From: Gaiellaceae bacterium
GTDB lineage: Bacteria > Actinomycetota > Thermoleophilia > Gaiellales > Gaiellaceae
Assembly: GCA_026002995.1 (NCBI GenBank)
Contig: BPGK01000001.1
Location: forward strand, 806,001 to 870,000
Direction of reading: 5' to 3'
DNA: 64,000 nt
The notes beneath the pieces were generated by a model. That model had not been told where the DNA came from and made no database searches. It worked only from the letters and a program-made list of their open reading frames with translations. The position numbers and the translations under genes are program-made. This document shows, one piece after another, positions 14,243-62,293 of the stretch (positions within the stretch are counted from its first letter, which is position 1; the number at the start of each line of letters is the position of its first letter).

Positions 14243-14899
14243 TCAGGTGGCCGTCGCGCCCGTGCCGATCGGGCACGAGACGCCTGTCCCCCCGAGGCCG
14301 CAGTACCCGTTCGGGTTCGCGGCGAGGTACTGCTGGTGGTAGGGCTCGGCGTAGTAGAAGGCGCCCGCAGGCGCGATCTCGGTCGTGATCTCGCCGTAGC
14401 CTGCCCGCGAGAGCTCGACCTGGAAGCGGTCCCGTGAAGCGAGCGCTGCGTCGCGCTGCGCCTCGCTCGTCCAGTAGATCGCCGAGCGGTACTGCGTCCC
14501 GACGTCGTTTCCCTGCCGCATCCCCTGCGTCGGGTCGTGTCCCTCCCAGAAGATCCGGAGCAGCTCCTCGTAGCTCGTGACACCCGGGTCGAAGACGCAG
14601 AGGACGACCTCGGCGTGCCCGGTGCGACCGGAGCAGACCTCCTCGTAGGTCGGGTTCGGCGTGAGGCCGCCCGAGTAGCCGACCGCGGTCGTGAAGACGC
14701 CAGGAGCCTGCCAGAACATCCGCTCGGCTCCCCAGAAGCACCCCATCCCGAAGATGGCCTGCTCCGTGCCCTCGGGGAACGGCGGGGTCAGGGGCGTGCC
14801 GAGCACGAGGTGCGCCGCGGGCACGCGCATCGGCTCGTCGCGGCCGGGGAGGGCGTCCTCCGGGAGGGGCAAGGCGAGCGGCTTTCGGCTGAAGAGCAC
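14243..14899 (-). CDS. msrA: Peptide-methionine (S)-S-oxide reductase MsrA
   Basis: 218 residues from GTG 14899, set by a TACCGT box (14911-14906) ending 6 bases upstream and by the usual N-terminal extension ([17 protein letters not shown]) seen in this MsrA subfamily. The catalytic cysteine is in [14 protein letters not shown]; other family strings are [40 protein letters not shown] and the C-terminal [20 protein letters not shown], whose cysteines can act as recycling residues. It reduces methionine-S-sulfoxide in oxidised proteins using thioredoxin. It is monocistronic here. Confidence 0.95.
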
Positions 14900-15106
14900 C
14901 CCTCTACGGTAGCGAGAGAGATCGCCGCGAGCTCGTCGCGTCTCGGCGCGCCCGACCTGGGCAGTCGAGGCACCCCGCCGATCGTGGCTGCGCGGGACGC
15001 TCGCCACGGTTGTCCACGTCGTCACCGCCTGGCAACAACGTCGATGCCCTCGCCGCGCAGCGGCGCAGAGACGATCGCCCTGACGACGGAATCGAACGGA
15101 AGGAGC

Positions 15107-16510
15107 ATGTCGATGCGAAGGACGTTGCGCCCTCTGACAGGCGCGCTGCTCGTGGCGGCGGTGGTTTCGAGCGTCGCCCTCGCCGCGGCGATCACCGCCC
15201 CGAGCAAGGCCGAGCTCGCTGCGGACGCCGTGCCGATCGGGAGTGGTCTCGGTCGGGAGTGGTTCCTCGGCGGCTTCAGCGACCTCTACCCCGAAGGCGC
15301 GTCGGGGAAGGAGTACTGGACGATCACGGACCGCGGCCCGAACCTCGACGGCGGCGTTGACGGCACGCCTTGCGACCGCGGCACGAAGGTGTACCCGGTT
15401 CCGACCTTCTCCCCGGAGATCGTGCGCATCGGCCTCAAGGACGGCACGATCAAGATCAAGGAGCGCATCCCGCTCTCCTTCGCGACCGGACCCGCCGTCG
15501 GCACCTCGGTGCGACCGGTTCCGAAGAACGAGCGCTCTCTCGACGCGAGTTGCCAGTGGCTTGGGACGACGCCGCGGGGTGTGGACAGCGAGGGCGTCGT
15601 CGTCGATCCGCGTGACGGCAGCTTCTGGGTCGCCGACGAGTACCTGCCGAGCATCCTCCACGTGCGCGCAGACGGCCGCGTGCTGACGCGCATCGTCCCC
15701 GCCGGCACCGAGACGAGCGCACAGGGCGCAGGCGCCGTCGTCGTGGGGGGCTTCCCGGAGACGATCGGCGTCAACTTCCGGCCGAACCGCGGGTTCGAGG
15801 GGGTCGCCATCTCGCCGGACGGCCGCACGCTGTACACGGCGCTCCAGAGCCCGATGGACTATCGGCCGACCGGAAGCGCGCCACCGGGCCCGAATCCCCG
15901 CAACTCGCTCGCGCTGCGCGTTTTCCGGCTTGACATCACGAGCCCCTCGGTTCCGCAGGTGACGGGGCAGTGGGTCTACTCGCTGGACAAGGGGACGGGG
16001 AACGCGCCGCTCGCGGACAAGGTGTCCGCGCTCGTGTGGCTCGGCCGCGATCTCATCGCTGTCGAGGAGCGCGACGACCCGGCGAACGACCCGAACGACA
16101 ACCCCCAGAACACGACGAACACGAGGCTGTACGTGGCGAACCTCGCTGCCGTCCCGCCGATTCCGCCGGACAGCGTCTGGAACGGGCCGACCGGCCCCGC
16201 GACGGGCGGCAAGAGCCTCGAGCAGTGGTATGTGCCCGGCCAGGGAGCGGGCGCGCCCGCCTCCCTTCCGGCGCCGGTGCCCAAGTGCCTCTGGGCCGAC
16301 GTCGCAGCGCTCCTTCGGGAGGCCGGTTTCACCGACCCGAACGAGCCGTTCCGGGCCGGGAACGGGAAGATCGAGGGTGTCGCCTACACCCCACGGCGGG
16401 GCGCGAACCCCGCTCTCCTCGCGGTGCTGAACGACAACGACTTCGGCTTGGTCGTGCCCATCCGGGAGCAGCTCAACGTCCTCGCTGCGCCGGCCGCGTG
16501 CCGACCCTGA
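15107..16510 (+). CDS. Secreted esterase-like/phytase-like beta-propeller protein
   Basis: 467 residues from ATG 15107, with a clear ribosome site (ggaagga) before it; this is one of few genes here with a classic Shine-Dalgarno. A signal peptide occupies residues ~1-30 (cut likely after LAAA). The rest matches the 'esterase-like activity of phytase' family: TDRGPNLDG early on, [22 protein letters not shown] in the centre, [11 protein letters not shown], and [11 protein letters not shown] near the end. Substrate is unknown; members are annotated from weak phytase/esterase activity. It ends in a strong terminator. Confidence 0.8.
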
Positions 16511-16522
16511 GGAGCCCGGAGG

Positions 16523-16560
16523 CGCCGCCCCCGGTGCCGCGAGCGGCACCGGGGGCGGCG
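16523..16560 (+). terminator. Strong GC hairpin terminator
   Basis: An 18-base perfect inverted repeat (16523-16540 with 16543-16560, effectively a 17-bp stem and CGAG loop) begins 13 bases after the phytase-like stop. It is followed by ttctc rather than a U tract, as is common in high-GC actinobacteria. Confidence 0.8.
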
Positions 16561-16661
16561 TTCTCAACGTCCTCCTTGCCGGGTCGACTCGGTTCACGAG
16601 GCCAGGCCGGCGATGGCGCCACGATCGTCGATTCTGCGCGCCGTCCGGGGCGCGCGTCTCG

Positions 16662-17024
16662 TCACGGCTTCGGCGCCGCCTCCCAGCCGTCGTACGTGGC
16701 CCCGGTCTCCTCGGCGATGCGCTCGAAGGCGGCTCGGAAGGCCCCCACGGTCGTGGCGTGGACGACACGCTCGGCTGCCGCTCGGATCGTCCACGTCTCG
16801 GCCTCGTCGGTGGGCGCGACGACGGCGACCTCGTAGCCGAGGTCGCGCGCCGCGGAGGCCGCCGCGCGCGCGGTCGTCTCGTCGCTGGCCATGAGCACGT
16901 GCACGATGCGTCGCGCCCGGGCGAGATCCGCCCCTCGGGCCTCGAGCTGGCGGAGCGCGAGCCGATCGGCGTCCTCGGGCGTCTCCGGGGCGCTGAGGTT
17001 CCGGATCCGGTCGAGGAGCCCCAT
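16662..17024 (-). CDS. RraB-like regulator of ribonuclease E activity
   Basis: 120 residues from ATG 17024. The first ~15 residues are an amphipathic lead ([20 protein letters not shown]), then an RraB-type alpha/beta domain with [26 protein letters not shown] and the terminal YDGWEAAP, which is characteristic. In gamma-proteobacteria RraB binds and inhibits RNase E; in actinobacteria the partner is unproven. It is the last gene of a four-gene operon starting with a VapBC-type toxin-antitoxin pair, and its ATG overlaps the stop of the PLP enzyme by one base. Confidence 0.72.
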
Positions 17025-17989
17025 CAGGCTCGCGCGAGCGCCTGCTCGAGGTCGGCCCAGAGCGCGTCGGGATCCTCGAGCCCGACCGACAGCCGTAGCA
17101 GGCCGGGCGAGACGCGATCGCCCTCCCAGCGCGAGCGCGCCTCGATGCGCGACCTCACGCCGCCGAGGCTCGTCATGTTCGCGATCAGCCGCGTCCCCGT
17201 CTCCACGCGACGCGCGGCGTTCGCATCCACGACGTCGAAGGAGAGGAGCGCTCCGAACCCCGGGTAGCGCACCCTTTCGACGGCGGGGTGATCGCGCAGC
17301 CGTTCGACGATCGCGCGGGCGCTCGCAGTCTGTCGCGCGAGCCGGACTTCGAGCGTCTGGAGGCCCCGCAACAGCAGCCAGGCGACGTCCGGCGCGCATA
17401 CGCAGCCGGTGCGGGTCCGGTGCTCGCGGAGCCGCGCGGCGATCTCCGTGTTCCGTGTGACCACAGCGCCCACGAGCGCGTCGTCGTGGCCGGCGAGGTA
17501 CTTCGTCGCGGAGTGGACGACGACGTCGCAGCCGTGGTCGAGCGGACGGACGTTCAGCGGCGTGGCGGCGGTCGCGTCGCAGACGACGAGCGCCGGGTGG
17601 GCGCAGGCCGCCTCGAAGTCCGGCATCGTGAGGAACGGGTTCGAGGGCGCCTCGAGCCAGATGAGATCGACGTCGTTCGGGGGCGGCCCCGTCTGGTCGA
17701 ACTCGACGTGGCGCACGCCCCAGCGCGCGAGCTCGTCGAGCATGACGCCCGTTCCGTAGTACGCGCCGGCGGCGAGGGCGACCGTCTGTCCGGGCTCGAG
17801 CAGGGCGAGAACGATCGCGGTCGAGGCCGCCGTGCCCGACGCGAAGAGGAGCGCCTCGCCGCCGTCCAGCTCGCCGAGCCGGCGCTCGGCCTCGGCGACC
17901 GTCGGGCTCGAGAAGCGAGCGTACGTGAACGCCCCCGGCTCGCCGTCCTCGTACGGCCAGGTCGTCGAGCGTTCGAGCGGTGTCGTCAC
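17024..17989 (-). CDS. Short Cys/Met-metabolism PLP enzyme (cystathionine gamma-lyase/synthase family)
   Basis: 321 residues from GTG 17989, overlapping the vapC stop by 4 bases. The fold-type I core is clear: YARFSSPTVAEAERRLGELD, LFASGTAASTAIVLALL, aspartate in LVVCDATAATP and the PLP lysine in VVHSATKYLAGHDDALVG; the C-terminus has LLRLSVGLEDPDALWADLEQAL. Typical members have 380-400 residues; this one lacks part of the N-terminal arm that shapes the neighbouring subunit's active site, and has a compact C-terminal domain. It probably cleaves or exchanges the side chain of a homoserine- or cysteine-derived amino acid; the exact reaction is not predictable. Confidence 0.82.
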   Translation of the reverse strand: MTTPLERSTTWPYEDGEPGAFTYARFSSPTVAEAERRLGELDGGEALLFASGTAASTAIVLALLEPGQTVALAAGAYYGTGVMLDELARWGVRHVEFDQTGPPPNDVDLIWLEAPSNPFLTMPDFEAACAHPALVVCDATAATPLNVRPLDHGCDVVVHSATKYLAGHDDALVGAVVTRNTEIAARLREHRTRTGCVCAPDVAWLLLRGLQTLEVRLARQTASARAIVERLRDHPAVERVRYPGFGALLSFDVVDANAARRVETGTRLIANMTSLGGVRSRIEARSRWEGDRVSPGLLRLSVGLEDPDALWADLEQALARA

Positions 17990-18372
17990 CAAACCACCCG
18001 TGCGGGGTCGTGGCGGGCGAGCCGCCGATCCGCCGTGACGAGACTGGCGCCGTTCGCCAATGCGGTCGCGTAGATGATCCGATCCGCCGGATCGCCGGGG
18101 AACGGCGGGGGCAGCATGCCCGCGACGCTCGCGACGTCGGACGTGAGCGTCAGCTCGACCACGCCTGCGGGGGCCAGAGCCCTCCGTACCCACGTGCGGA
18201 GGTCGGGGAGGAGGCGGATGCGCCCCAGCCGCTCGAGGGTCGCCAGCTCCCAGACACTGATCGTCGACACTCCGACCTCGCCGTCTCGCTCGATGGCCTG
18301 CGCTGCCGCGTCGGAGAGTCGCGGATCCCCGTCTGTCCACCACACCCACGCATGCGTGTCGAGGACGTTCAC
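17986..18372 (-). CDS. VapC-type PIN-domain toxin ribonuclease
   Basis: 128 residues from GTG 18372, which overlaps the antitoxin stop by 4. The acidic PIN residues are all visible: D5 ([11 protein letters not shown]), E42 (SVWELATLERLGR), D97 (GDPADRIIYATA) and D115 (LVTADRRL). VapC toxins cut tRNA or rRNA when freed from the antitoxin. The overlap with the PLP gene downstream means the toxin is translated in the same operon as two non-toxin genes. Confidence 0.88.
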   Translation of the reverse strand: MNVLDTHAWVWWTDGDPRLSDAAAQAIERDGEVGVSTISVWELATLERLGRIRLLPDLRTWVRRALAPAGVVELTLTSDVASVAGMLPPPFPGDPADRIIYATALANGASLVTADRRLARHDPARVVW

Positions 18373-18593
18373 TCGCGCTCGACGTCCCACGCCTCTCCGG
18401 TGGAGAACAAGAGCTCGTCGTCGTCCACGAGGTAGACGACGCTGCCCTCGAGCGAGGGTGGCTTCTCGGCGGGCTCGATCCGGGCGACCGGCTTGCCGCG
18501 CTTCGTGACGACGATCGTCTCGCCGGTCTCCGCGACCTCGTCGAGCAGGCGCAGGCACTGGGCCTTGAACCGGGCCGCCGGGATCGTGCGCAT
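18369..18593 (-). CDS. Phd/YefM-family antitoxin
   Basis: 74 residues from ATG 18593; a TACCCT box (18605-18600) ends 6 bases upstream. The N-terminal DNA-binding half has the Phd/YefM pattern [19 protein letters not shown] and [17 protein letters not shown]; the acidic C-terminus ([16 protein letters not shown]) would wrap the toxin. It pairs with the VapC gene that overlaps its stop, and likely autoregulates through the direct repeats upstream. Confidence 0.85.
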
Positions 18594-18599
18594 GCGGAC

Positions 18600-18634
18600 A
18601 GGGTACCGCCGAAGTGGTCATCCGACAGTGGTCA
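18600..18634 (-). promoter_or_regulatory. Toxin-antitoxin operon promoter with direct-repeat operator
   Basis: Minus-strand -10 box TACCCT lies at 18605-18600. Upstream are two exact 9-bp direct repeats (agtggtcat on the plus strand) at 18613-18621 and 18627-18635, 14 bp apart, covering the -10/-35 spacer and -35 area. This is where Phd-type antitoxins bind their own promoter. The divergent carboxylase promoter (TAGGCT 18659-18664) is only 25 bp away and could be affected. Confidence 0.5.
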
Positions 18635-18672
18635 TTTTCGGGCATGCCTCCGCGGCAGTAGGCTGCGCCGCA

Positions 18673-20238
18673 ATGGACGAGACCCACGAGACCACCGAGG
18701 CGAAGCTCCGCTGGCTGGAGGAGCTCCGCGAGCAGGCCCTTCACGCCGCGGACCCTCGCCACGTCGAGCGCCAGCGCTCGCGGGGGAAGCTACTTGCGCG
18801 CGAGCGGATCGAGAGACTGCTCGACCCCGGCTCGTTCGTCGAGCTCGACCGCTTCGTGCGTCACCGCGAGGTCGAGTTCGGGATGCGCGAGAACCGTCCC
18901 TGGGGCGACGCGGTGGTCACGGGCTACGGGACGATCTTCGGGCGGAAGGTGTTCGTCTTCTCGCAGGACTTCACGATCTTCGGCGGCTCGCTGTCGGAGG
19001 TGTTCGCAGAGAAGGTGTGCAAGGTGATGGACCTCGCCGTCCGCTACGGCTGTCCGGTGATCGGGATCAACGACTCGGGGGGCGCGCGGATCCAGGAGGG
19101 CGTCGTCTCGCTCGCCGGCTACGCCGAGATCTTCTGGCGCAACGTCCAGGCCTCGGGCGTCGTCCCGCAGATCTCCCTGATCATGGGGCCGTGCGCCGGC
19201 GGGGCCGTGTACTCGCCTGCGATCACCGACTTCGTGCTCATGGTCGAGGGGACGAGCTACATGTTCATCACGGGCCCCGACGTCGTGAAGACTGTCACGG
19301 GCGAGGAGGTCAGCTTCGAGGAGCTCGGCGGCGCGGCGACGCACGCGACGCGCTCGGGAGTCGCTCACTTCACGCACCCCGACGAGGAGACGTGCCTCGA
19401 GGAGGCGCGCTACCTGCTCTCGTTCTTGCCGCAGAACAACCTCGAGTCGCCCCCGTATACGCCCCCGTCCGACCCGATCGACCGCGAGGACCCCTCGCTC
19501 GACACGATCATCCCCGACAGCCCCAACAAGCCGTACGACATGAAGCAAGTGATCGAGCGAGTCTTCGACGACGGCGAGTTCCTCGAGGTGCAGCCCCACT
19601 GGGCCGAGAACATCGTGTGCGGGTTCTCGCGCCTCGCCGGCCACGTGGTGGGGGTGGTCGGAAACCAGCCCAGTGCGCTCGCCGGCGTCCTCGACATCGA
19701 CGCGTCGGTGAAAGCCGCGCGCTTCGTGCGCACGTGCGATGCGTTCAACATCCCGCTCGTGACCCTCGTCGACGTGCCCGGGTTCCTGCCGGGAACGGCG
19801 CAGGAGTGGGGCGGAATCATCAGGCACGGGGCGAAGCTGCTGTACGCGTACGCGGAGGCGACCGTGCCCAAGCTCACCGTGATCACGAGGAAGGCGTACG
19901 GCGGCGCGTACGACGTCATGTCCTCGAAGCACATCCGTGCCGACTTCAACGTCGCCTGGCCGACGGCGGAGGTCGCCGTCATGGGGCCGGAGGGCGCGGT
20001 CAACATCGTCTTCCGCCACGAGCTCGCGACCGCCGCGGATCCCGACGCGCGCCGTGCCGAGCTGATCTCCGAGTACAAGGAGCGGTTCGCGAACCCGTAC
20101 ACGGCCGCCGAGCGCGGCTACGTCGACGACGTCATCGAGCCGCGGCGCACGCGTCCGGTGCTGGTGAGCGCGCTCGAGACGGCCCTGACGAAGCGCGAGC
20201 CGAAGCCGAAGCGCAAGCACGGGAACATCCCGCTCTGA
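18673..20238 (+). CDS. Acyl-CoA carboxylase carboxyltransferase (beta) subunit, PccB-like
   Basis: 521 residues from ATG 18673; TAGGCT (18659-18664) ends 8 bases before. N-terminal half: [33 protein letters not shown], the acyl-CoA oxyanion glycines in [14 protein letters not shown] and [17 protein letters not shown] (propionyl-CoA carboxylase-type). C-terminal half: biotin-site [21 protein letters not shown] and [14 protein letters not shown]. It moves CO2 from carboxybiotin to acetyl-/propionyl-CoA. The matching biotin-bearing alpha subunit is at 26728, 6.5 kb away, so the complex is split. Confidence 0.93.
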
Positions 20239-20243
20239 GGCGG

Positions 20244-20273: not shown

Positions 20274-20286
20274 TCCCGGCGGTGCG

Positions 20287-20721: not shown

Positions 20722-20743
20722 CGGAAGACTCCTCCTTGTCCAT

Positions 20744-20765: not shown

Positions 20766-20769
20766 GTGC

Positions 20770-21360: not shown

Positions 21361-21406
21361 CGTGCGCGATCGTACCGCGGGCGCGGGAACGCTCCTCGCC
21401 CTATCG

Positions 21407-22604: not shown

Positions 22605-22642
22605 AGCCTACTCGTGACAGGATACTGTCTGTTCTCTAGGAT
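22605..22642. promoter_or_regulatory. Divergent promoters with a palindromic operator (MFS / molybdate regulator)
   Basis: Rightward promoter: GTGACA (22614-22619), 17-bp spacer, TAGGAT (22637-22642), ATG 8 bases later. Leftward -10 TAGGCT (22610-22605), ATG 7 bases later. A perfect palindrome gacag-gata-ctgtc at 22616-22629 sits inside both spacers, where a bound repressor would block both promoters. The adjacent HTH regulator is the natural candidate. Confidence 0.6.
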
Positions 22643-25164: not shown

Positions 25165-25964
25165 GCGCGCTCGCCGTCTCGTTGCGCCACCGGCTCGAGC
25201 GCTTCGAGCTCGACGTCCGCTTCGAGGTACCGGTGGGGCTGACCGTCCTCTTCGGACCGTCGGGAGCCGGGAAGTCGCTGACGCTCGCGCTCGTCGCCGG
25301 CCTGCGCCGCGCCGATGCGGGACGCGTCGAGCTCTCGGGGCGGACGCTCTTCGACTCCGAGCGAGGCGTCGACCTGCCGACGAGGCAGCGACGGGTCGGA
25401 TTCGTCTTCCAGGATGCGCTCCTCCTCCCGCACCGTTCGGTGCTCGACAACGTCGCCTTGGCCGTCCGAGACGAGCGCTCTCGGCGTTCGCGGCGCGCTC
25501 GCGCCCACGCGCTCCTCGAGGAGGTCGGGGCGGTCGAGCTCGCTCCGGCGCGGCCGTCGACGCTCTCGGGGGGGCAGCGACAGCGGGTCGCGCTCGCGCG
25601 CGCGCTCGCCGGCTCGCCCGACCTCCTCCTCCTCGACGAGCCCCTGAGCGCCTTGGACGATCCCGTGCGTGAGCGTCTGCGTCGTCTCGTGCGCGAGGTC
25701 GTCGAGAGTCACCGCGTCCCGGCGCTCTTCGTCACGCACGACCGCGACGAGGCCGCTGTGCTCGCAGACGCGCTCGTCCGCCTCCGCGCCGGCAGGGTGG
25801 AGGAGGTCGTCGAGCGCGGCGGCGTCGGGGAGGCGCTTGCGAGGAGCAGCGGGGCGGAGCGCGAGCTCGCAGCGGCGCACGCACGGATCCGCGAGCTCGA
25901 GCGCGCGCTCGCGGATGCAGGGAGGGCCACTTCCGTGGTCGAACGGCGAGCCCACGCCGAGTAG
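25161..25964 (+). CDS. modC: Molybdate ABC ATPase ModC, lacking the TOBE domain
   Basis: 267 residues from GTG 25161 (overlaps modB stop by 4). Walker A FGPSGAGKSLTL, Q loop VFQDALLLPH, signature [17 protein letters not shown], Walker B LLLLDEPLSALDD and H loop FVTHDRDEAA are intact. ModC usually has ~350 residues with a C-terminal molybdate-binding TOBE domain; here it is replaced by a short alpha-helical, coiled-coil-prone tail (AHARIRELERALADAG). Feedback inhibition by bound molybdate should therefore be absent or supplied elsewhere. Confidence 0.9.
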   Translation: MSALAVSLRHRLERFELDVRFEVPVGLTVLFGPSGAGKSLTLALVAGLRRADAGRVELSGRTLFDSERGVDLPTRQRRVGFVFQDALLLPHRSVLDNVALAVRDERSRRSRRARAHALLEEVGAVELAPARPSTLSGGQRQRVALARALAGSPDLLLLDEPLSALDDPVRERLRRLVREVVESHRVPALFVTHDRDEAAVLADALVRLRAGRVEEVVERGGVGEALARSSGAERELAAAHARIRELERALADAGRATSVVERRAHAE

Positions 25965-25974
25965 GCTGCTCCGA

Positions 25975-26211: not shown

Positions 26212-26705
26212 TCGAGCCCCGAGACCCACGTCGCCACGACCGCGGTGAGGAGTGCCCACCAGGCGACATCCGAGCTCCACGTGCCCGCGGCCGCGAATCC
26301 GGCGATGGCGGCGGCAAGCGCCTGGACCCACGTCTTGAGGCGCCCGAGGTCACGGGCCCCGAGGACGACGCCCCGTTCCACCGCCGCCAGGCGCAGGCCG
26401 GAGACGAGGATCTCGCGCACGACGATGAGCGCGACCATCCACGCAGGCGCTACCCCCTCGCCGACGAGCATCACGAGTGCCGCGAGGACGAGCACCTTGT
26501 CGGCGACCGGGTCGAGGAGCTTCCCGAGCGCTGTCGAGACGCCGCGGCGGCGCGCGAGCCACCCGTCGACCTGATCGGTCGCCATCGCGAGCACGAAGAC
26601 GGCGGTCGCCCAGTATGCGTGGTCGGGGAAGTCCCAGGCGAACAAGAGGACGACCACCGGAACGGCGACGATGCGCACGACCGTGAGCTGATCCGGGAGG
26701 CTCAC
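26166..26705 (-). CDS. pgsA: CDP-diacylglycerol-glycerol-3-phosphate phosphatidyltransferase family
   Basis: 179 residues from GTG 26705, set by TATTCT (26719-26714) 8 bases upstream. The CDP-alcohol phosphotransferase motif D-x2-DG-x2-AR-x8-G-x3-D-x3-D is present as TDQVDGWLARRRGVSTALGK and the following LDPVADK. Several hydrophobic helices surround it. The enzyme makes phosphatidylglycerophosphate, or a related CDP-alcohol product, at the membrane. It is divergent from the carboxylase alpha gene, 22 bases apart. Confidence 0.9.
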   Translation of the reverse strand: MSLPDQLTVVRIVAVPVVVLLFAWDFPDHAYWATAVFVLAMATDQVDGWLARRRGVSTALGKLLDPVADKVLVLAALVMLVGEGVAPAWMVALIVVREILVSGLRLAAVERGVVLGARDLGRLKTWVQALAAAIAGFAAAGTWSSDVAWWALLTAVVATWVSGLDYARVAPGVLRGERA

Positions 26706-26727
26706 CGTAGGAGAGAATACGCGGCCG

Positions 26728-29998: not shown

Positions 29999-30065
29999 GC
30001 CGCGCCATGCTCGCACACGAGAAGCTGCTCGGAGCCGACCTGCGGCCGGTAGACTCGCCCGCGCT

Positions 30066-32441: not shown

Positions 32442-32886
32442 TCGAGCGCCTCGGGGCGTTCAGGGATCGGGCGAGGATCCGTGGACGTCGCAGAGAGCGC
32501 GACGTCGATCGCGCGGAGAAGGCGAAGTCGACACGAAGCCGCGTGTGAGCAAGACCGAGAGGCCTTTGAGAAGCGGATAAGCGCGCGGAGAACGCGAAGT
32601 CGACACGAAGCCGCATGCCTCCCGTGAGCGATTCCCCGCTACGCTGACCGCAGGGATCCTGGGGATCCCCTGGGGGGCGTTGGGGGCGCTGGGAGTCCGG
32701 CCGCGGCGCCGCAGTGGGAATCGAGTTCGGCGCTCGTCGGGGACGGGAGGCGGTCGCGCTGGGTGGCTTCGGCGAGCAAGGCCGGTGGACGGAGCATCTC
32801 GCAGCCCTCTCGCAGTCCGACCGCGTCCCTCGAGCACGGTGGCGGTACCCGATCGACACCCCGCGGGCGACCGATACGCTCCACTC
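32442..32886 (+). repeat. Non-coding stretch with a 35-bp direct repeat
   Basis: No convincing gene lies in these 445 bases. Two near-identical 35-bp copies, sharing the core cgaagtcgacacgaagccgc, run 32511-32545 and 32583-32617 (72 bp apart, two mismatches: g/c and g/a). Further on is a G-rich palindromic patch around 32651-32680 (gggatcctggggatcccc). The last 12 bases hold the promoter of the next gene, TACGCT at 32875-32880. Confidence 0.6.
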
Positions 32887-34248: not shown

Positions 34249-34258
34249 GAGCCGGATC

Positions 34259-34486
34259 CTACGCCACCTGCTCGGCCGCCAGGGTGACCGGCAGTGTGCG
34301 AGCGACGAGGCGAGGGTGAGCGGGTGGGACGAGTCCCCTACCGTTGGCCGCTCGGAACGTCGGGCAGACCGTGTTCCCGGGGATGGCGCAGAGGCCTTCT
34401 CGACGGAAGTAGCAGTCCTCGCAGGTGACCTGGCGGCGCTCTCTCGACGGCGTTGCGGCTCGCACGGCAGCCCGCATTCTGGCCAT
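34259..34486 (-). CDS. Small cysteine-motif protein
   Basis: 75 residues if started at ATG 34486; ATG 34477 or 34531 are alternatives and no clear ribosome site decides. The core is VTCEDCYFRREGLCAIPGN then TVCPTFR: four cysteines spaced C-x2-C-x8-C-x7-C, fit for zinc or an Fe-S cluster. No family name is known to me. Its stop codon overlaps the promoter of the LapA-like gene, so the two are probably linked. Confidence 0.5.
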   Translation of the reverse strand: MARMRAAVRAATPSRERRQVTCEDCYFRREGLCAIPGNTVCPTFRAANGRGLVPPAHPRLVARTLPVTLAAEQVA

Positions 34487-37387: not shown

Positions 37388-37401
37388 TCAGGTAGCGTCC
37401 G
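37388..37401 (+). promoter_or_regulatory. Citrate synthase promoter core
   Basis: tcaggtagcgtccg contains the -10 box TAGCGT (37393-37398) 8 bases before GTG 37407. The same 14 bases occur at 48391-48404 before sdhA, also 8 bases from its GTG. No convincing -35 box is seen at either site. Confidence 0.6.
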
Positions 37402-43645: not shown

Positions 43646-45472
43646 GTGCCCGGTAGACGCTGGGAGACGTTCGTTGCCGAGGAGCCGCCCGAGCGGCCGG
43701 CCGATCCCGCGGTCCGCAAGGCGAACGCGCGCCGCATCGTCGCGCTCTTCCGGCCCTATCGCCGCCGACTCGCGGCGGTCTTCGCGATCATCGTGCTATC
43801 GGCCGGCATCGGCATCGTCTCGCCGTTCCTGCTCCGCGAAGTCCTCGACGTCGCGATCCCCGAGCAGCGGGTCGGACTGCTCACTGCGCTCGTCGCCGGG
43901 ATGGTCGCGATCCCGATCGTGACCGGCGTCCTCGGCGTCTGGCAGACGCTGCTCTCGAACCAGGTCGGTCAGCGCGTTATGCACGACCTGCGCACGCAGG
44001 TCTACCGTCACCTGCAGCGGCTCTCGCTCGCCTTCTTCACCCGGACGCGCACGGGCGAGGTGCAGAGCCGCATCGCGAACGACATCGGCGGCATCGAGAA
44101 CGTCGTCACCTCGACCGCGACCTCGGTGCTCTCGAACGTGACCACCGTCCTCGCGACCGTGGTCGCGATGGTGCTGCTCGACTGGCGGCTCGCCGTCTTC
44201 GCGCTCGCGTTGCTGCCGCTCTTCGTCTGGCTGACGAAGCGCGTCGGCGCGGAGCGCAAGAAGGTGACCGCCGAGCGCCAGGCATCCCTCGCCGACGTTT
44301 CCTCGATCGTCCAGGAGTCGCTCTCCGTGTCCGGGATCCTGCTCGGGAAGACGATGGGGCGGACCGACGACCTCGCCGAGCGCTTCTCCGCGGAGTCGGC
44401 GCGTCTCGCCGAACTCGAGGTGCGCAGCCGCATGACCGGGCGCTGGATGATGGCTGCGATCCAGACCTCGTTCGCGGTCATGCCGGCCCTCGTCTACTGG
44501 TTCGCGGGCATCGCGATCGCGCACGGATCGGACACGATCACGATCGGGACGCTCGTCGCGTTCACGACGCTCCAGGCGCGGCTCTTCTTCCCCATCGGCA
44601 GCCTGCTCAACGTCCAGCTCGACGTACAGTCCTCGCTTGCGCTCTTCGATCGAATCTTCGAGTACCTCGATCAGGAGGTCGACATCGTCGAGGGCACGCG
44701 CACGCTCGAGGTGCCGCGGGGCGAGGTCCGGCTCGAGCACGTCTGGTTCCGCTACGACGACGCGGCGTGGACGCTTAGGGACGTCTCTTTCACCGTGCCC
44801 CCCGGCACGAAGACGGCGCTCGTCGGCGAGACCGGCTCCGGGAAGACGACGTGCGCGTACCTCGTCGCTCGCCTCTACGACGCGACCCGGGGCACCGTGT
44901 CGATCGACGGCGTCGACGTGCGCGAGCTCACGTTCGCGTCGCTCGCCGCCACCGTTGGAGTCGTCTCGCAGGAGACCTACCTCTTCCATGCGACGGTGCG
45001 CGAGAACCTCCGCTTCGCAAAGCCGGACGCGACCGACGAGGAGATCGAGGAGGCGGCTCGGGCGGCGCAGATCCACGAGTTGATCGCGACGCTGCCGGAC
45101 GGCTACGAGACGGTGGTCGGCGAGCGCGGCTACCGCTTCTCCGGAGGCGAGAAGCAGCGGATCGCTATCGCGCGGACGATCCTGCGCAACCCGCCGGTGC
45201 TCGTCCTCGACGAAGCCACCTCCTCACTCGACCCGCAAACGGAGCGGCTCGTCCAGGAGGCGCTCGAGCGGCTGGCGGAAGGGCGTACGACGATCGCGAT
45301 CGCGCACCGGCTCTCGACCGTGCGCGACGCCGACCAGATCGTCGTCCTCGAGCGCGGACGGGTCGTGGAAGTCGGGCCCTTCGACGAGCTCCTCGCCCTC
45401 GGCGGGCGGTTCGCCGCGCTCGCGGCGCGGGACGGCATCGGCGTCGTGCCCGCCGCAGGAGGCGTACGATAG
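43646..45472 (+). CDS. ABC exporter, fused membrane and ATPase domains
   Basis: 608 residues from GTG 43646. Six hydrophobic helices in ~45-330, with an ABC_membrane core ([23 protein letters not shown]), then an ATPase: Walker [18 protein letters not shown] loop [21 protein letters not shown], signature [16 protein letters not shown], Walker [14 protein letters not shown] loop [10 protein letters not shown]. It would work as a dimer exporting lipid, peptide or drug. Its stop codon overlaps the -10 box of the pckA leader. Confidence 0.92.
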
Positions 45473-45477
45473 GCGCG

Positions 45478-45501
45478 ATGTCGACGCGGATCCGCTCGTG
45501 A
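45478..45501 (+). CDS. Putative 7-codon leader peptide MSTRIRS of pckA
   Basis: TACGAT (45465-45470) is followed by 7 bases and then ATG 45478; the frame reads MSTRIRS and stops at TGA 45499-45501, which overlaps the pckA GTG 45498 (GTGA). The spacing is that of the leaderless genes here, so the ribosome would load at this ATG and pass to pckA by coupling. Without it, pckA would have a 27-base gap from its only visible promoter. It is too short to be supported by homology. Confidence 0.45.
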
Positions 45502-48369: not shown

Positions 48370-48409
48370 CCCGCGTTCGCGCCTGAGCGATCAGGTAGCG
48401 TCCGCGGTC

Positions 48410-52254: not shown

Positions 52255-53073
52255 GTGTGGTGGCTCGTCCTCATCGGTGCGCTCCTCGTCGCGACGGTTC
52301 TCGCCTGGGGCTGGTTCGAGGCCGGGTGGCTCCGGCGGCGCGTGCTCGAGGTGGAGCTCGAGGGAGTTCCCGCGGAGCTCGACGGGCTGCGCATCGCCCA
52401 CCTCTCCGACTTCCATCTGGGGGTGCCCTCGCGCGGGCGACGCGCGGTCGAGCAGGCCGTTGCGTGGGTCTCGGAGCGCCGTCCCGACCTCGTCTGCATC
52501 ACGGGCGACCTCGTCTCGCGCCGCTCGGGCCTCCCGCTGCTCGAGGAGCTCCTCCGGCGGCTCGACGGCTGCTACGTCGTTCTCGGCAACCACGACCTCG
52601 CCTCGAGCCGCGACCCCTTCTCCCAGCGCGTCGAGCCCGAGGAGCTCGCGGGGATCGACGGGGTCGTTCTGCTGACTGACGAGTCGACCGACGTCTCTCT
52701 TCGCGGGCGCACGGTGCAGCTCGTCGGCGTCGATCCCCGTACCTACGCGGCCCGTGCCGCGAGACCGCATGCGCTGACTGACGAGTCAGCCGACGTCCGC
52801 ATCTGCCTCTGTCACTACCCCGGAATCGTGCGCCGCATCCCCTCGGGTGCGTTCCAGCTCGTGCTCGCCGGACACCTCCACGCCGGCCAGATCGTCGTCC
52901 CCTTCCCGGGCAGGAGGTTGCGACTCGCGCACCTACGCGCCCGCGATGTCGAGGGGCTCTACCGCTACGGCTCGACGACGCTCCACGTCTCGCCCGGTCT
53001 CGGGACGACGTTCGTTCCCTTCCGCTTCTTCGCGCGCCCGGAGGTCACGGAGCTGGTTGTACGATCGCGCTGA
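52255..53073 (+). CDS. Metallophosphoesterase, YkuE-like
   Basis: 272 residues from GTG 52255. One N-terminal membrane helix (WWLVLIGALLVATVLAWGW), then the calcineurin-like site: AHLSDFHLG, ITGDLVSRR, VLGNHDLAS, CLCHYPGIV and LAGHLHAGQI. All metal ligands are present. Substrates of YkuE-type enzymes are unclear (UDP-DAG-type lipids in some). The next gene's ATG overlaps its stop (TGATG). Confidence 0.9.
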   Translation: MWWLVLIGALLVATVLAWGWFEAGWLRRRVLEVELEGVPAELDGLRIAHLSDFHLGVPSRGRRAVEQAVAWVSERRPDLVCITGDLVSRRSGLPLLEELLRRLDGCYVVLGNHDLASSRDPFSQRVEPEELAGIDGVVLLTDESTDVSLRGRTVQLVGVDPRTYAARAARPHALTDESADVRICLCHYPGIVRRIPSGAFQLVLAGHLHAGQIVVPFPGRRLRLAHLRARDVEGLYRYGSTTLHVSPGLGTTFVPFRFFARPEVTELVVRSR

Positions 53074-54957: not shown

Positions 54958-55050
54958 CGTGCAAGTGTACGGAGCGGCGCCTCCCGCTCCTCTCGGGAAC
55001 CGACGCTCGCAGGGCCGAGGCGTGTCGCCAGCGCCTGACCTCGGGGACGC

Positions 55051-56143: not shown

Positions 56144-56195
56144 CAACTTGTGAGCCTATCGAGGGCGTTGAGGCACCGTGTCGCGTGATGCTCGA

Positions 56196-56818: not shown

Positions 56819-56820
56819 TC

Positions 56821-57864
56821 TCAGCTCGTGTCAGGAGCCACGTCGTCCGTGGGCGGTGGTGCTCGCTCGAGCCAGGCCTCTCGCCAGAGGGGTAGGTGTT
56901 CTCGGGCGCAGAACCATGCTCCCGATGTGAGGCGCCCCGTACACACGACGCCCTCGAGCGAGACGCAGTCGTTCTTGATCTCGATCAGCCTTCCAGTTCT
57001 CTCGTCGATAAGGCGCTCGACCCGTTGACGGACGCGATAGGTCTTGCCGCATCGCGGCGCCATCTCGAGGGTGAAGAGCAGGCCCCGGTGGGCGCCACGC
57101 TCATCGAGGGTTCGCCCGATCTCCACGGGCGACCTCACCCGTACCCACTCTCCCGGCTGGAGGTCGAGCTTCTCCCCGTCGACCCGGCGCTCTCCGGCCA
57201 CTGGTACAGGGAGATCGCTGACGAGTCCGAGCTTGCGGCCGATCTTCCGAAGCAACGCTCCGGCACCCACGGAGACGAGCTCTAGGAGACTGATGTTCCG
57301 GACGCGAACTTCGCGAACGTACTGACCGAGCGCCTTCTCTGGGATCGGGGTGCTTGCCCGGGTCGCCTCGGTCGCCTGGCAGCGATAGCGCGTCTCCTCG
57401 GAATCCGGATCCGCTCTCGTCGTATTCGCCTCGAGAAGCGTGCGGAGCTGCGTGCAGTCCCCGGAGGGGGCGGCACCATGATCGCTCGAGGCGTGCTCCA
57501 GCCAGGCCTCCTTCCAGAAGATCCGGCACTCGGCTTGACATCCTGCGTGGGCGGACCCGTCACAACGGGCACCGTCGAGGAGAACCGCTCCGGTCACTCT
57601 GCGACTCCTCGACTCTTGACCGAAGTAGTCGCAGATCTTCTCGAGACGCTTGTACACCGTCAGCGTCTGGCCGATGTACTTCGTCATCTCGGGCATGAAC
57701 GGAACACCCTCGAGAGCGCCGGTCTCGTCGAGGGTCGCGAGGATCTCATGGGCGGGCCTCACGCGCACGACGTCCCCCGGTCGGAGCTCACCGGGAACGA
57801 CGGCGCGACCACGGCTACGCTTGGCCGGCACCCTCGCATCATCGTGAATCGGACGGCGTCTCAC
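56821..57864 (-). CDS. Internally duplicated protein of a polysaccharide locus
   Basis: 347 residues from GTG 57864 (a longer frame upstream overlaps the aminotransferase gene). Two ~100-residue repeats: A ~24-124 (ELRPGDVVRVRPAHEILATL ... CRIFWKEAWLEHA) and B ~234-334 (DLQPGEWVRVRSPVEIGRTL ... LPLWREAWLERA), joined by a linker with YRCQATEATRAS and QYVREVRVRNISLLELV. Each repeat starts with an SH3-like strand pattern and ends with a cysteine-rich W-(K/R)-EAWLE motif. Homologues occur in exopolysaccharide gene clusters, but no activity is known. It is 28 bases after the aminotransferase. Confidence 0.75.
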   Translation of the reverse strand: MRRRPIHDDARVPAKRSRGRAVVPGELRPGDVVRVRPAHEILATLDETGALEGVPFMPEMTKYIGQTLTVYKRLEKICDYFGQESRSRRVTGAVLLDGARCDGSAHAGCQAECRIFWKEAWLEHASSDHGAAPSGDCTQLRTLLEANTTRADPDSEETRYRCQATEATRASTPIPEKALGQYVREVRVRNISLLELVSVGAGALLRKIGRKLGLVSDLPVPVAGERRVDGEKLDLQPGEWVRVRSPVEIGRTLDERGAHRGLLFTLEMAPRCGKTYRVRQRVERLIDERTGRLIEIKNDCVSLEGVVCTGRLTSGAWFCAREHLPLWREAWLERAPPPTDDVAPDTS

Positions 57865-57892
57865 AAGTCGAGCGCTTTGTCCCAGCTGCGGC

Positions 57893-59287
57893 TCAGTTGA
57901 AGCGCCGATACACGGGCTTGACCGGCGAACCAACGAGATAACGCTCGAAGCCATCCTGAAGCGCTCGGTTGTACACCTCGAGAGCCTCGCTGAACTGCTC
58001 GACGGTCCAGGAGAGCGTTTCGTCGTCGTGTGAGTAGCTGACGACAAGAGAAGGGGCGAGGATTCCTCGGCGAACGAGTTCCTGCATGAGCAGGGTACGG
58101 AACTCTTGCGAGGGAAGGCCGTCCGCGCTCCGTGTTTCGTAGACGAGGTTGCTGTCCCGGCCTAGGACGCGCACGAAGTCGGCAACTCCGGTAGCTCGCG
58201 CAGCCTCCTCGATCCCTTCTCGAAGGCGGCGTCCGGCGTCATGGAGGACGTCGATCACATCGTGCTCGACGTACGCGTCCATGGTCGCGATTGCGGCCGC
58301 CAGAGCGTGCGTCTCCGCTCCGTGCGTCGTCGAGAGCAGGAATACCCGCTCCTTGTGGTGTCGGAGCCCCCCGAGCTCCATGAGCTCGCGTCGACCCACG
58401 AGCGCGGACACCGAAAACCCGTTCGCCAGGCCTTTGCCGAAGATCGACAGGTCAGGACTGACTCCATAGAGAGTCTGCGCTCCTCCCAGATGCCAGCGGA
58501 ATCCCGTGATGGTCTCGTCGAGGATGAGAACCGCGCCCTCGCGGCGGCACAGATCCTCCACGCGGCGGAGGAAGCCGTCGGCAGGAGGATCCGTGCGCTC
58601 TGGCTCCAGAACTACGCATGCAACCTCCCCAGCGTGGTTGGCAAAGATCGTCTCGAGGCTCGCGAGATCGTTGTATCTGAACGTGACGGAGAGCTCGCGG
58701 ACGGCGTTGGGGATGCCGGCGTCCATCGGCGTCGTAACCATGGCCCAGTCGTCGTACGAGAAGAACGGGTGGTCGTTGCACAGCGCGACGAGGTCGCGCC
58801 CCGTGTACGCGCGCGCCAACCTCACGGCGGCGGTCGTCGCCGTGGAGCCGTCCTTCGTGAACTTGACCATCTCGGCGCTCGGAACGAGCTCGAGTAGACG
58901 CTCGGCGCACTCGAGCTCCGTGATGCTCGGCCGAGTGAAGTTCGATCCCCGTGCGAGCGCCGTTTCGACGGCCTTGATGACAGGGGGGAATGCATGTCCG
59001 AGGGTCACGGCTCGTAGTCCGGAGCCGTACTCGACGAACTCCCTGCCGCTGACATCCCAGACTCGACAGCCCTCGCCGCGGGCTATCGCGACCGGGGCCT
59101 CGGCTGGAAACTGATCGTCTCCCTTGGCGTACGTGTGCGCCCCGCCCGGTATGAGCGCGTGGAGACGCTCTCGCAGATATGCCGAGCTCCGGTGGTCGCT
59201 CTCGGCTGTCGCGCGACTTGAGTGCAGTGCCAACCCGGCAGGGGCCCTGACCTCGGGACGTGCACGCTCGCTGACGTGTTTGGTCAC
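57893..59287 (-). CDS. Class III aminotransferase (glutamate-1-semialdehyde aminomutase-like)
   Basis: 464 residues from GTG 59287; TAGCGT (59299-59294) ends 6 bases upstream. GGAHTYAKGDDQFP, VEYGSGLRAVTLGHAFP, the phosphate-binding MVKFTKDGSTATTAAVRLAR, aspartate in VLILDETITGFRWHLGGAQ and the PLP lysine in SIFGKGLANGFSVSALVG. Genes of this type in polysaccharide clusters transfer an amino group onto a sugar or side-chain precursor; true GSA aminomutase is less likely given the setting. Confidence 0.85.
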   Translation of the reverse strand: MTKHVSERARPEVRAPAGLALHSSRATAESDHRSSAYLRERLHALIPGGAHTYAKGDDQFPAEAPVAIARGEGCRVWDVSGREFVEYGSGLRAVTLGHAFPPVIKAVETALARGSNFTRPSITELECAERLLELVPSAEMVKFTKDGSTATTAAVRLARAYTGRDLVALCNDHPFFSYDDWAMVTTPMDAGIPNAVRELSVTFRYNDLASLETIFANHAGEVACVVLEPERTDPPADGFLRRVEDLCRREGAVLILDETITGFRWHLGGAQTLYGVSPDLSIFGKGLANGFSVSALVGRRELMELGGLRHHKERVFLLSTTHGAETHALAAAIATMDAYVEHDVIDVLHDAGRRLREGIEEAARATGVADFVRVLGRDSNLVYETRSADGLPSQEFRTLLMQELVRRGILAPSLVVSYSHDDETLSWTVEQFSEALEVYNRALQDGFERYLVGSPVKPVYRRFN

Positions 59288-59293
59288 GAACAG

Positions 59294-59337
59294 ACGCTAC
59301 TCGAGGATATGTCGGGTGACAATGGGCCGAGTAAGGT
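59294..59337. promoter_or_regulatory. Divergent leaderless-type promoters
   Basis: Minus -10 TAGCGT (59299-59294) lies 6 bases from GTG 59287, plus -10 TAAGGT (59332-59337) lies 7 bases from ATG 59345. Both genes of the polysaccharide locus would be controlled from this 57-bp gap. Confidence 0.55.
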
Positions 59338-59344
59338 GACGACC

Positions 59345-60604
59345 ATGGTAAGCGCATCTCCTGTGTCGAGCCTCGCTCACGGCAGGCGGTGTCGGTTCTG
59401 CGAGGCGCCCGTCGAGTTGACCGTGGTCGATCTCGGGATGTCACCTCTGTGCGAAAGCTTCCTCCGCGCAGATCAGCTCCACCTCATGGAGCCCTTCTAC
59501 CCGCTCCACGTGTACGCGTGCGAGCGCTGCTGGCTCGTGCAGCTCGAGGAGTTCGTGCCTCCCAACGAGATCTTCTCGGAGTACGCCTATTTCTCCGGTT
59601 ACTCGACCTCCTGGGTCGAGCACGCACGCCGATACGTGGACGCGATTCGCGCCGCGCTCGACCTCGGGCCTCACGACCTCGTCGTCGAGCTCGGATCGAA
59701 CGATGGCTATCTCCTCCAACACTTCTTGGGGCACGGGATCCCCCTGCTCGGCATCGAGCCGGCCGCGAATGTCGCCAAGGTCGCAGAAGGCCGGGGTGTG
59801 CCAACGCTCGTCGCCTTCTTCGGAGCGGAGGTCGCTCGCGACCTCGTTGCCAGGGGTCAACGGGCGCGGCTTGTCATCGGCAACAACGTGCTCGCCCAAG
59901 TGCCGGACCTGAACGACTTCGTAACCGGTGTGAAGATCCTGCTGCGCGAAGACGGCACAGCGACCTTCGAGTTCCCACACCTCCTCCGTCTCTTGGAGGG
60001 GGTGCAGTACGACACGATCTACCACGAGCACTTTTCCTACTTCTCCCTCTGGACAGTCGACCAGATCTTCCGAGCGCACGAGCTCGCTATCTACGACGTC
60101 GAGGAGCTGCCGACACACGGGGGTTCTCTGCGCGTGTACGTCCAGCACGTGGATGGGCCGCACCCGACGCAGTCGACCGTGTCGACGCTTCTCGCCGTCG
60201 AACAGGAAGCCGGTCTGAGGTCCGCAGCACGTTATCGGCGCTTCGCAGACGAGGTCGTGGACTCAAAGCACGCGCTGCTCGACCTCCTCATCCGACTCAA
60301 GCGCGAAGGGAGACGTGTCATCGGTTACGGGGCTCCTGGGAAGGGGAATACGCTTCTGAACTACTGTGGAGTTCGAACTGATCTGCTCGAGTACACGGTC
60401 GATCGCAACCCCTACAAGCACGGCCTCTTCACTCCCGGGACACACATCCCCATTCACCCCCCCGACGTGATCGCGGAGACGAGGCCGGACTACATCCTCG
60501 TCCTCCCGTGGAACCTCATCGACGAGATCTCGGAGGCGCTTGCCTACACGCGCGCCTGGGGGGCGAGGCTTATCGTGCCGATTCCGCTCGCTCGGATCCT
60601 GTAG
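59345..60604 (+). CDS. Sugar C-methyltransferase (NovU/TylC3-like)
   Basis: 419 residues from ATG 59345, set by the -10 box. N-terminal zinc-binding part CRFCEAPVE ... YACERCWLVQLEEFV (four cysteines); SAM domain VVELGSNDGYLLQHFLGHG and ATFEFPHLLRLLEGVQYDTIYHEHFSYFSL in parts; C-terminal domain RVIGYGAPGKGNTLLNYCG and YTVDRNPYKHGLFTPGTHI. It C-methylates a dTDP/UDP-keto-sugar at C3 or C5, giving branched sugars. Confidence 0.9.
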   Translation: MVSASPVSSLAHGRRCRFCEAPVELTVVDLGMSPLCESFLRADQLHLMEPFYPLHVYACERCWLVQLEEFVPPNEIFSEYAYFSGYSTSWVEHARRYVDAIRAALDLGPHDLVVELGSNDGYLLQHFLGHGIPLLGIEPAANVAKVAEGRGVPTLVAFFGAEVARDLVARGQRARLVIGNNVLAQVPDLNDFVTGVKILLREDGTATFEFPHLLRLLEGVQYDTIYHEHFSYFSLWTVDQIFRAHELAIYDVEELPTHGGSLRVYVQHVDGPHPTQSTVSTLLAVEQEAGLRSAARYRRFADEVVDSKHALLDLLIRLKREGRRVIGYGAPGKGNTLLNYCGVRTDLLEYTVDRNPYKHGLFTPGTHIPIHPPDVIAETRPDYILVLPWNLIDEISEALAYTRAWGARLIVPIPLARIL

Positions 60605-60744
60605 CCAGCGTCATTGCCGGGGCGAGCGAGGGAGGACGAGTTGCGACCCGCTCGATGCCCGTTGCGTTGCGGTGCCGAGGGTGTCGATCGCGGCTCTTGA
60701 CCGTACCCGTTCGTCTGTCTACTCGCTCTGAGAGTCGGGTTGCC
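60605..60744 (+). other. Gap after the C-methyltransferase
   Basis: No gene is seen in this 140-base stretch. It may include the outer end of the IS3 remnant that follows. Confidence 0.4.
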
Positions 60745-61105
60745 TCAGGTCCTCCACTCTGCCGCGTAGGTGGCGGGGGTCTTCGAGCCGAGGCTCGAGT
60801 GCGGCCTCAGCTGGTTGGAGGTGTCTCTCCGCTCTGGCGCTCGAGCGCCGACATCTGGTCGGGCGCTCCGCGCGCAGCCTCGCTCGGTGCTGACCCGTGA
60901 TCTGGCACGCCCGCCGCTCAGAGAGGCCGAGACGGCCCTCGAGCGCCCTCACGGCTTCACGTCTTGGCGACGGGCGTCATCACATTTCCCTTTCGCGATC
61001 TCCTTCAGGGCGTCGATCTCTCGAGAGCTCGTCGGCGACCATCCGCTTCAGCTTGGCGTTCTCGCGCTCGAGCTCCTTCGGGCGTGTGCCGCTGGCGTCT
61101 TCTCT
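60745..61105 (-). mobile_element. IS3-family insertion sequence remnant
   Basis: On the minus strand three pieces of an IS3 transposase can be read in order: orfA end RPKELERENAKLKRMVADEL and DALKEIAKGKCDDARRQD; orfB start ALEGRLGLSERRACQITGQH; then, after a deletion of the DDE core and a frame change, the orfB C-terminus PHSSLGSKTPATYAAEWRT ending at TGA (60747-60745). The catalytic middle is missing, so it cannot move. Further upstream sequence to ~61260 may be more of it. Confidence 0.7.
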
Positions 61106-61269
61106 GCCCCACCGCTTTGATTCTCAGGGGGCCACGTCATCTCCGCCTCGACGCCGAGCCAGCGCGCTGCGTGTGACGTCTGCCGCCTCGCTGGCGGAAC
61201 CGGGAGCCCCTCTCGATCGCTACGAGGCTCACCTTCAGGAGCGCCCCGAACGCAACGAGCAGAATGCGT
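61106..61269 (-). other. Gap between IS3 remnant and glycosyltransferase
   Basis: No gene is supported. Likely residual IS and flanking sequence. Confidence 0.35.
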
Positions 61270-62235
61270 TTACGTCTCTTCAAGCTTGCTCTTCACTGCG
61301 TCGACGATGACGCGAGCTCGTCGCTCCCAGCCGTGCTCTCGATGCGCGATCTCGAATGCCTCGATCCGTTTGGTTTCGAACTCCGGATCGGCATCAGCAG
61401 ACGCGAGGACTTCCTCCAGGTCGGAGCCATCGGCCCTACACTCGACGATCGCGTGCCGCGGGAATAAGGCTTCGAACTCGCCCGAGCGAGGGAGCACTCC
61501 GAGCAGGCGGCAGCCGGCTCCGACTCCCTCGAGGTAGCGCGAGGTGAGCGGGCTGAAGGATCCGGTTCGGCGCCTGTCGTTCAAGTCGGGTGGTGTGACC
61601 AGAAAGTAGCGAGAGCGCGCTGCGATCTCTCGTAGCTCAGCCACGGTCTCGGGATCGTTCGGGCGCTGGGAGAACCGATACACGAGCCCTCGACGCGAGC
61701 AGATCTCGAGCAATCTCTCGTGGATCGGGGCGTGACGGCGTCCAAGCCAGAAGGCATAGATGTCGCGCTCGAGACCAAGCTCGTCGAACACGGAGCGGGG
61801 GAATCCCAGAGGAAGCCAGCGTGCGTCGAGACCGGAGCTTCTCGACCGAACGGCATCCGATGCCTCGCGGTAGGAGAAGAACGCGATCGCGACGCGCTGC
61901 GAGTCGAGCAGGCGTTCGAGATCGGGAACGACGCTCTCGAACGCGTCGACGGAGAGAACCGCCCGCAGAGCCAGGGGGCGCACGTACGCGAGCGCCCACA
62001 CGGGAATGGGTGGACGGAGGTGCAGCTGAGCCCAGAAGACCGCGTCCGCGCTACGCACCGTTCGGGCTCTCGATAGCCAGCCGGTGATGGATGCCCCTAC
62101 GGGGCGGCGCAGGCCAGGCGGGGCGACGAGCGTGACGCCGGGTAGCTCGGCAAGTGCCTCCTCTAGCGCCATCGCGGAGTTGCGGAGCGAGATCGGCTGG
62201 TCGATCGCACGTTGCGACAGGACTACGAGCTTCAT
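61270..62235 (-). CDS. CgeB-like glycosyltransferase family protein
   Basis: 321 residues from ATG 62235; TACGTT (62247-62242) ends 6 bases upstream. N-terminus MKLVVLSQRAIDQP; the last third matches CgeB/GT1-like glycosyltransferases: SFSPLTSRYLEGVGAGCRLL, then a pattern in which a glutamate and basic residues contact the sugar nucleotide. N-terminal Rossmann part is diverged. Donor and acceptor unknown. Divergent from the next glycosyltransferase. Confidence 0.65.
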   Translation of the reverse strand: MKLVVLSQRAIDQPISLRNSAMALEEALAELPGVTLVAPPGLRRPVGASITGWLSRARTVRSADAVFWAQLHLRPPIPVWALAYVRPLALRAVLSVDAFESVVPDLERLLDSQRVAIAFFSYREASDAVRSRSSGLDARWLPLGFPRSVFDELGLERDIYAFWLGRRHAPIHERLLEICSRRGLVYRFSQRPNDPETVAELREIAARSRYFLVTPPDLNDRRRTGSFSPLTSRYLEGVGAGCRLLGVLPRSGEFEALFPRHAIVECRADGSDLEEVLASADADPEFETKRIEAFEIAHREHGWERRARVIVDAVKSKLEET

Positions 62236-62293
62236 GCACGTAACGTAATGGCCTGCTGGTCTGAGCTCATGCGCGATGATTTTGACGTCCACA

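Follow-up and report, generated by a model that had tools for sequence, protein, structure and literature searches.

Do the TANNNT hexamers that stand a few bases before many start codons of a Gaiellaceae genome mark promoters whose transcripts begin at the start codon itself? The DNA in question, hereafter the window, is a stretch of 64,000 nucleotides (nt) (G000:C1:806001-870000) from the 2.62-Mb, one-contig, 97% complete genome of an uncultured member of the family, with a GC content of ~71%. The first-pass annotation had listed 17 such boxes, claimed at least 20 and interpreted them as promoters of leaderless mRNAs. All 17 proved exact in hexamer, start codon and gap, the latter being the number of bases between the end of TANNNT and the start codon. 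A scan of the window for TANNNT-N6..8-RTG, where RTG is ATG or GTG, yielded 21 sites; the four sites beyond the list (4019-, 28979+, 39003+ and 45478+) are the weaker ones. The evidence below makes it very probable that the boxes belong to sigma-A-type promoters from which leaderless mRNAs are made, and that the genome combines leaderless with Shine-Dalgarno (SD) initiation.

Start codons were called without any motif, using an order-4 three-periodic Markov model of codon structure in which the only other term was start-codon type; the resulting coding-only starts carry some errors. The caller was trained on the window plus 400 kb, and a second, independent 400 kb was scored with the model frozen. 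Each 400-kb set consisted of 20 stretches of 20 kb, and with the window the samples cover 864 kb, or 33% of the genome. With expected counts taken from distances 20–60, boxes were found 6–8 bases before 9 of the 58 called starts in the window (0.44 expected), 91 of 391 starts in the first 400 kb (3.7 expected) and 60 of 375 in the second (2.7 expected), i.e., 151 of 766 starts outside the window versus 6.4 expected. Over the 864 kb, 160 of 821 starts were boxed, as compared to 10 of 9001 in-frame ATG or GTG codons lying more than 50 codons inside genes (Fisher p=1.7e-164). Distances of 0–5 and 11–20 from called starts were nearly empty. The test set beforehand for the claim was a peak of TANNNT whose first T falls at -12 to -14; such a peak was found genome-wide and in the replicate sample, and shuffled or displaced sequence did not give the same enrichment at gene starts. 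Around starts, 116 boxes preceded in-frame ATG or GTG codons and 5 preceded out-of-frame ones. A CANNNT variant made a small addition (18 versus 6.4 expected). In raw DNA of both strands, scanned without gene calls, TANNNT-Nd-RTG peaked at d = 6–8 (6–10 for ATG). No such peak was seen for TTG or CTG; because TTG is rare as a start here, the missing TTG peak is weak evidence.

Nine of the 17 listed boxes precede coding-only starts exactly, one is 6 nt off, and five are in frame but 33–279 nt upstream of the called start. The proposal that the box be used to set start codons is supported by 19 genes having an in-frame boxed RTG no more than 150 nt upstream of the called start, where 2.6 were expected.

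A strict box at a gap of 6–10 from the called start was found for 195 of 824 genes, or 24%. Counting in-frame candidates near the start, 52% of divergent genes were boxed, versus 11% of genes within 20 nt behind another; since divergent genes need a promoter of their own, their share counts for the leaderless-promoter reading. SD 4-mers were depleted in boxed genes (0.10 per gene versus a background of 0.19), while unboxed genes had 0.84 if close behind another gene or 0.64 otherwise, versus a background of 0.25–0.27. The 3' end of 16S rRNA is normal, with an intact anti-SD. No -35 element was found among 181 promoters, as the best TTGACA match at the -35 distance equalled that of shifted controls and base composition was likewise negative, and there was no enrichment of the extended -10 sequence TGN (5 of 113 promoters, 4.2 expected). 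With T1, A2 and T6 conserved, -35 weak or absent and extended -10 rare, the boxes have the features of -10-dominated promoters of the sigma-A/HrdB type; these three bases are those of the -10 element in actinobacterial promoters (PMC3898074). Base -1 is C in 77% of gap-6 genes, as compared to 50% of unboxed genes, and C at -1 is the preference reported for mycobacterial start sites (PMC4633059).

Conservation was examined in six further genomes of the family, over stretches syntenic with the window, where a box at gap 6–10 near the aligned start was kept in 36 of 42 orthologues of boxed window genes, versus 8 of 72 orthologues of other window genes. Two genes, 17989 and 45498, account for seven of those eight boxed cases, and the promoters of both appear to have changed in this genome. 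The phosphatidyltransferase gene at 26705 has a box at gap 7–9 in all 15 same-family loci, this one included, and the succinate dehydrogenase gene (48410) has one in every same-family locus with an aligned N-terminus. In two sister families, GGAGG is found before the succinate dehydrogenase start, and one of the two also has a TAGGCT farther upstream. For carboxyl transferase (18673), the box is retained in most orthologues of the order, with two genomes having an SD-like leader instead; the start moves from -18 to +6 nt relative to the aligned protein, i.e., by up to 24 nt, while the gap stays at 6–9. Box and start codon thus move together among orthologues, and the orthologue sets suggest switching between leaderless and SD modes. 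The excess of boxed RTG in raw DNA, a rough measure for the relatives since ~200 kb was sampled per genome, was ~0.22 per kb here and 0.20–0.26 per kb in four genomes of the order, one from the same genus, one from the same family and two from other families; the outgroups Actinomadura and Streptomyces gave 0.11 and 0.06 per kb, respectively.

In the mechanism that we propose, the boxes would be -10 elements of the RNA polymerase holoenzyme carrying the principal, presumably sigma-A/HrdB-type, sigma factor. Transcription would begin on, or a few bases from, the start codon, giving mRNAs predicted to have neither a 5' untranslated region nor an SD site, and translation would follow the leaderless route, in which the ribosome recognises the 5'-terminal RTG. 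The remaining genes, mainly inside operons, would use SD sites. Support comes from the box, its spacing, the reading frame, conservation, and the absence of SD and -35 elements. For about one-quarter of the genes, most of the listed ones among them, the message probably has its first base at the start codon or only a few bases away. The leaderless interpretation given by the first-pass annotation is supported, because leaderless transcription agrees with the spacing, the restriction to RTG starts, the missing SD, the C at -1 and the way in which box and start shift together among orthologues.

The spacing was found to vary with the start codon. Among boxed GTG genes, 58 have gap 6 and 43 have gap 7–10 (58/101 at gap 6), while for boxed ATG genes the numbers are 19 and 73 (73/92 at gap 7–10). 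The odds ratio is 5.2 (p=1.9e-7), with p ~3e-4 in each independent sample; the pattern came to light in the first sample and recurred in the second. In the relatives' raw DNA, the pattern was present in the same-genus genome (p=0.006) and the same-family genome (p=0.03), and was not seen in 200 kb each from two sister families, a Streptomyces and an Actinomadura. In the literature searched, no report of start-codon-dependent spacing was found. We give about even chances to a lineage-specific rule by which the box distance depends on the start codon in Gaiellaceae; either GUG would have to be the first nucleotide while AUG would tolerate a short leader, or the polymerase would choose its start site at a different distance for A than for G. 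Separately, a repeat origin of the GTG gap-6 sites was rejected, the maximum pairwise identity being 0.66 over 47 nt.

Some observations weigh against a leaderless transcript at every site. Genes with gap 7–10, mostly ATG genes, could have start sites 1–5 nt upstream, making some of them near-leaderless. ATG 53073 overlaps the end of the upstream gene, and two of the 17 listed sites (25975 and 62235) are within open reading frames (ORFs) not taken by the caller. As to chance, 200 runs of an order-2 Markov null gave 11.9 ± 3.5 sites with a maximum of 23, a range that takes in the 21 counted in the window. As the count is only modestly above the null, counting sites in 64 kb cannot settle the question, and the position-specific controls described above were used instead.

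The first of these observations leads to the alternative that survives best, namely that polymerase starts a fixed ~7 bases past the box, so that gaps of 7–10 leave 1–5-base leaders. We regard this as possible but somewhat doubtful; it would refine the leaderless explanation, and the two are not mutually exclusive. ATG genes are indeed distributed over gaps 6–10, and C is enriched at the sixth base past the box in ATG sites with gap 6 (0.69) and gap 7 (0.66), but a G at -1 is common before ATG in general (0.55), so that the hint is weak. While the succinyl-CoA ligase TTG genes stay at gap 10 and conserve C-G at bases 7–8, gap-8 GTG sites have C immediately before GTG (0.64), which argues against the fixed distance. 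The succinyl-CoA ligase beta gene (30066) probably has a short leader; its TTG is 10 bases past TAGACT in four genomes, and in two others the start is GTG at gap 8–9. It is very improbable that the main transcripts start elsewhere, at a second upstream promoter, or that the hexamer is a translational element. Read-through is possible for the 54 of 195 boxed genes that lie within 50 nt behind a same-direction gene, but the SD depletion of boxed genes would leave a leadered transcript without an obvious initiation signal, boxes are concentrated at divergent genes, and their T, A and T match the actinobacterial -10 bases cited above. Least probable of all, chance, whereby a degenerate TANNNT and a common RTG would give a pattern-scanning reader ~20 matches in 64 kb, is refuted for the set as a whole by the excess at motif-free starts inside and outside the window, by the frame and internal-codon controls and by orthologue conservation, though single sites such as 62235 could be chance matches. 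Table 1 gives the sites that we take to be putative leaderless or near-leaderless promoters.

Table 1. TANNNT boxes of the window, with the start codons that they precede. Positions are those of the window; G numbers denote relatives' genomes.
Box	Position	Strand	Gap	Start codon	Product	Coding-only start and context	Orthologues
TAGGCT	18659..18664	+	8	ATG 18673	carboxyl transferase	identical	boxes at gap 6–9, same and other families
TAGGAT	22637..22642	+	8	ATG 22651	helix-turn-helix (HTH) regulator	identical; in-frame stop at -36, no alternative start upstream	
TAGGCT	25962..25967	+	7	GTG 25975	78-residue ORF	not taken by caller	47% identical in G004: TATCGT, gap 7
TACGCT	32875..32880	+	6	GTG 32887	aminotransferase	identical	boxed 5/5
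TAGCGT	37393..37398	+	8	GTG 37407	citrate synthase	6 nt upstream	boxed 2/3
TAGCGT	48396..48401	+	8	GTG 48410	succinate dehydrogenase flavoprotein	identical	
TACGAT	53060..53065	+	7	ATG 53073	Asp23-like	box within 3' end of upstream gene; candidate internal operon promoter	G004, same box; G011, TACAAT
TAAGGT	59332..59337	+	7	ATG 59345	C-methyltransferase	141 nt downstream, atypical low-GC region; zinc-binding domain starts at residue 16	
TACCGT	14906..14911	-	6	GTG 14899	methionine sulfoxide reductase	identical	G004, TACTGT, gap 8
TACCCT	18600..18605	-	6	ATG 18593	Phd/YefM antitoxin	Pfam domain from residue 1; no alternative start upstream	G007, TACTCT, gap 6
TACGAT	21369..21374	-	8	ATG 21360		in frame, 33 nt downstream	
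TAGGCT	22605..22610	-	7	ATG 22597	major facilitator superfamily (MFS) transporter	divergent from 22651; in-frame stop at -48, no alternative start upstream	
TATTCT	26714..26719	-	8	GTG 26705	CDP-alcohol phosphatidyltransferase	identical	
TAGGAT	34256..34261	-	7	GTG 34248	88-residue LapA-like protein	identical	G004, TAGGAT, gap 6, start 30 nt further in
TACACT	54964..54969	-	6	GTG 54957	semialdehyde dehydrogenase		boxed at aligned start 1/3 (G004, TACACT, gap 7)
TAGCGT	59294..59299	-	6	GTG 59287	class-III aminotransferase	divergent from 59345; in-frame stop at -12, no alternative start upstream	
TACGTT	62242..62247	-	6	ATG 62235	glycosyltransferase-like	ORF not taken by caller, atypical low-GC region; weakest of the 17	
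TAGGCT	56153..56158	-	9	ATG 56143	RecR	not in first-pass list	boxed at gap 6 in 2/3
TAGACT	30050..30055	+	10	TTG 30066	succinyl-CoA ligase beta	not in first-pass list	boxed 5/6
TACGAT	45465..45470	+	7	ATG 45478	7-codon ORF 45478-45501	TGA overlaps GTG 45498 of phosphoenolpyruvate carboxykinase (pckA)	

Several of the sites are arranged back to back. In the divergent leaderless pairs 22597/22651, 59287/59345 and 18593/18673, the start codons are ~53–80 bp apart, so that the two promoters of each pair overlap or nearly do so. At 26705/26728 the divergent start codons are only 22 bp apart, with the phosphatidyltransferase box inside that gap; the biotin-carboxylase-type gene 26728 must be transcribed from within the phosphatidyltransferase gene or start very close.

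The short ORF at 45478-45501 has the appearance of a leaderless leader peptide to which pckA is coupled. In G003, pckA is preceded by a 9-codon boxed equivalent of this mini-ORF, and G009 and G001 have similar short ORFs; in G002, G004 and G006, the box is directly before the gene. Genome-wide, coupled leaderless mini-ORFs number 6 versus 1.75 expected, with a maximum of 4 in 12 null bins, which is only suggestive. At 17024-18593 on the minus strand, a pyridoxal-phosphate (PLP) enzyme of Cys/Met metabolism lacks the box that all nine of its closer family orthologues have. Its start codon, GTG, overlaps the end of a PIN-domain gene that in turn follows the Phd/YefM antitoxin gene. The PLP enzyme gene seems to have lost its own leaderless promoter and joined the toxin-antitoxin operon; in G007 a box is still present there. 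Between 56000 and 64000 of the window, GC falls to ~65% and codon use is atypical; genes for glycosyltransferases, a C-methyltransferase and an aminotransferase are found there, as in an acquired surface-polysaccharide cluster.

The leaderless phenomenon is already published for actinobacteria, and the present case is a new instance rather than a new kind. Zheng et al. (2011) computed leaderless genes for Actinobacteria and Deinococcus-Thermus, with a mean of 19.2% of genes (range 2.3–29.8%) in 86 actinobacterial genomes (PMC3160421); the ~24% found here (strict box, gap 6–10) is near their upper end. As in that study, TANNNT is ~12 bp before the start, with the middle three bases carrying little information in high-GC genomes, SD genes coexist and orthologues switch mode (PMC3160421). 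For the uncultured lineage of this genome, no report on leaderless genes was found in the literature searched. Shared with Mycobacterium tuberculosis (Cortes et al. 2013, PMC3898074) are the TANNNT -10, the lack of a -35 consensus, the proportion of about one-quarter of genes, and the rarity of the extended -10 (7% there, 5/113 here); toxin-antitoxin genes are leaderless there, and the Phd/YefM antitoxin gene is boxed here. The 5' ends were mapped in M. tuberculosis, whereas here they are predicted from DNA sequence. Also, active-growth genes are depleted in M. tuberculosis; here boxes precede the genes for citrate synthase, succinate dehydrogenase and carboxyl transferase, a tentative contrast drawn from a few genes. 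Features in common with mycobacteria (Shell et al. 2015, PMC4633059) are the use of ATG and GTG only, C at -1, and upstream mini-ORFs coupled via RTGA; the difference is that in Gaiellaceae most GTG starts have gap 6 and most ATG starts gap 7–10.

Gene finders already model leaderless starts (PMC9581028), and the box would fix start codons misplaced by coding potential. Succinate dehydrogenase and carboxyl transferase, being leaderless or having an SD-type leader in different families, may serve as natural pairs for comparing the two modes. The dependence of spacing on the start codon is less expected than the rest of the findings and could be tested cheaply. In sum, leaderless initiation would be a main mode of expression in this uncultured family, used by about one-quarter of genes and about one-half of divergent ones.

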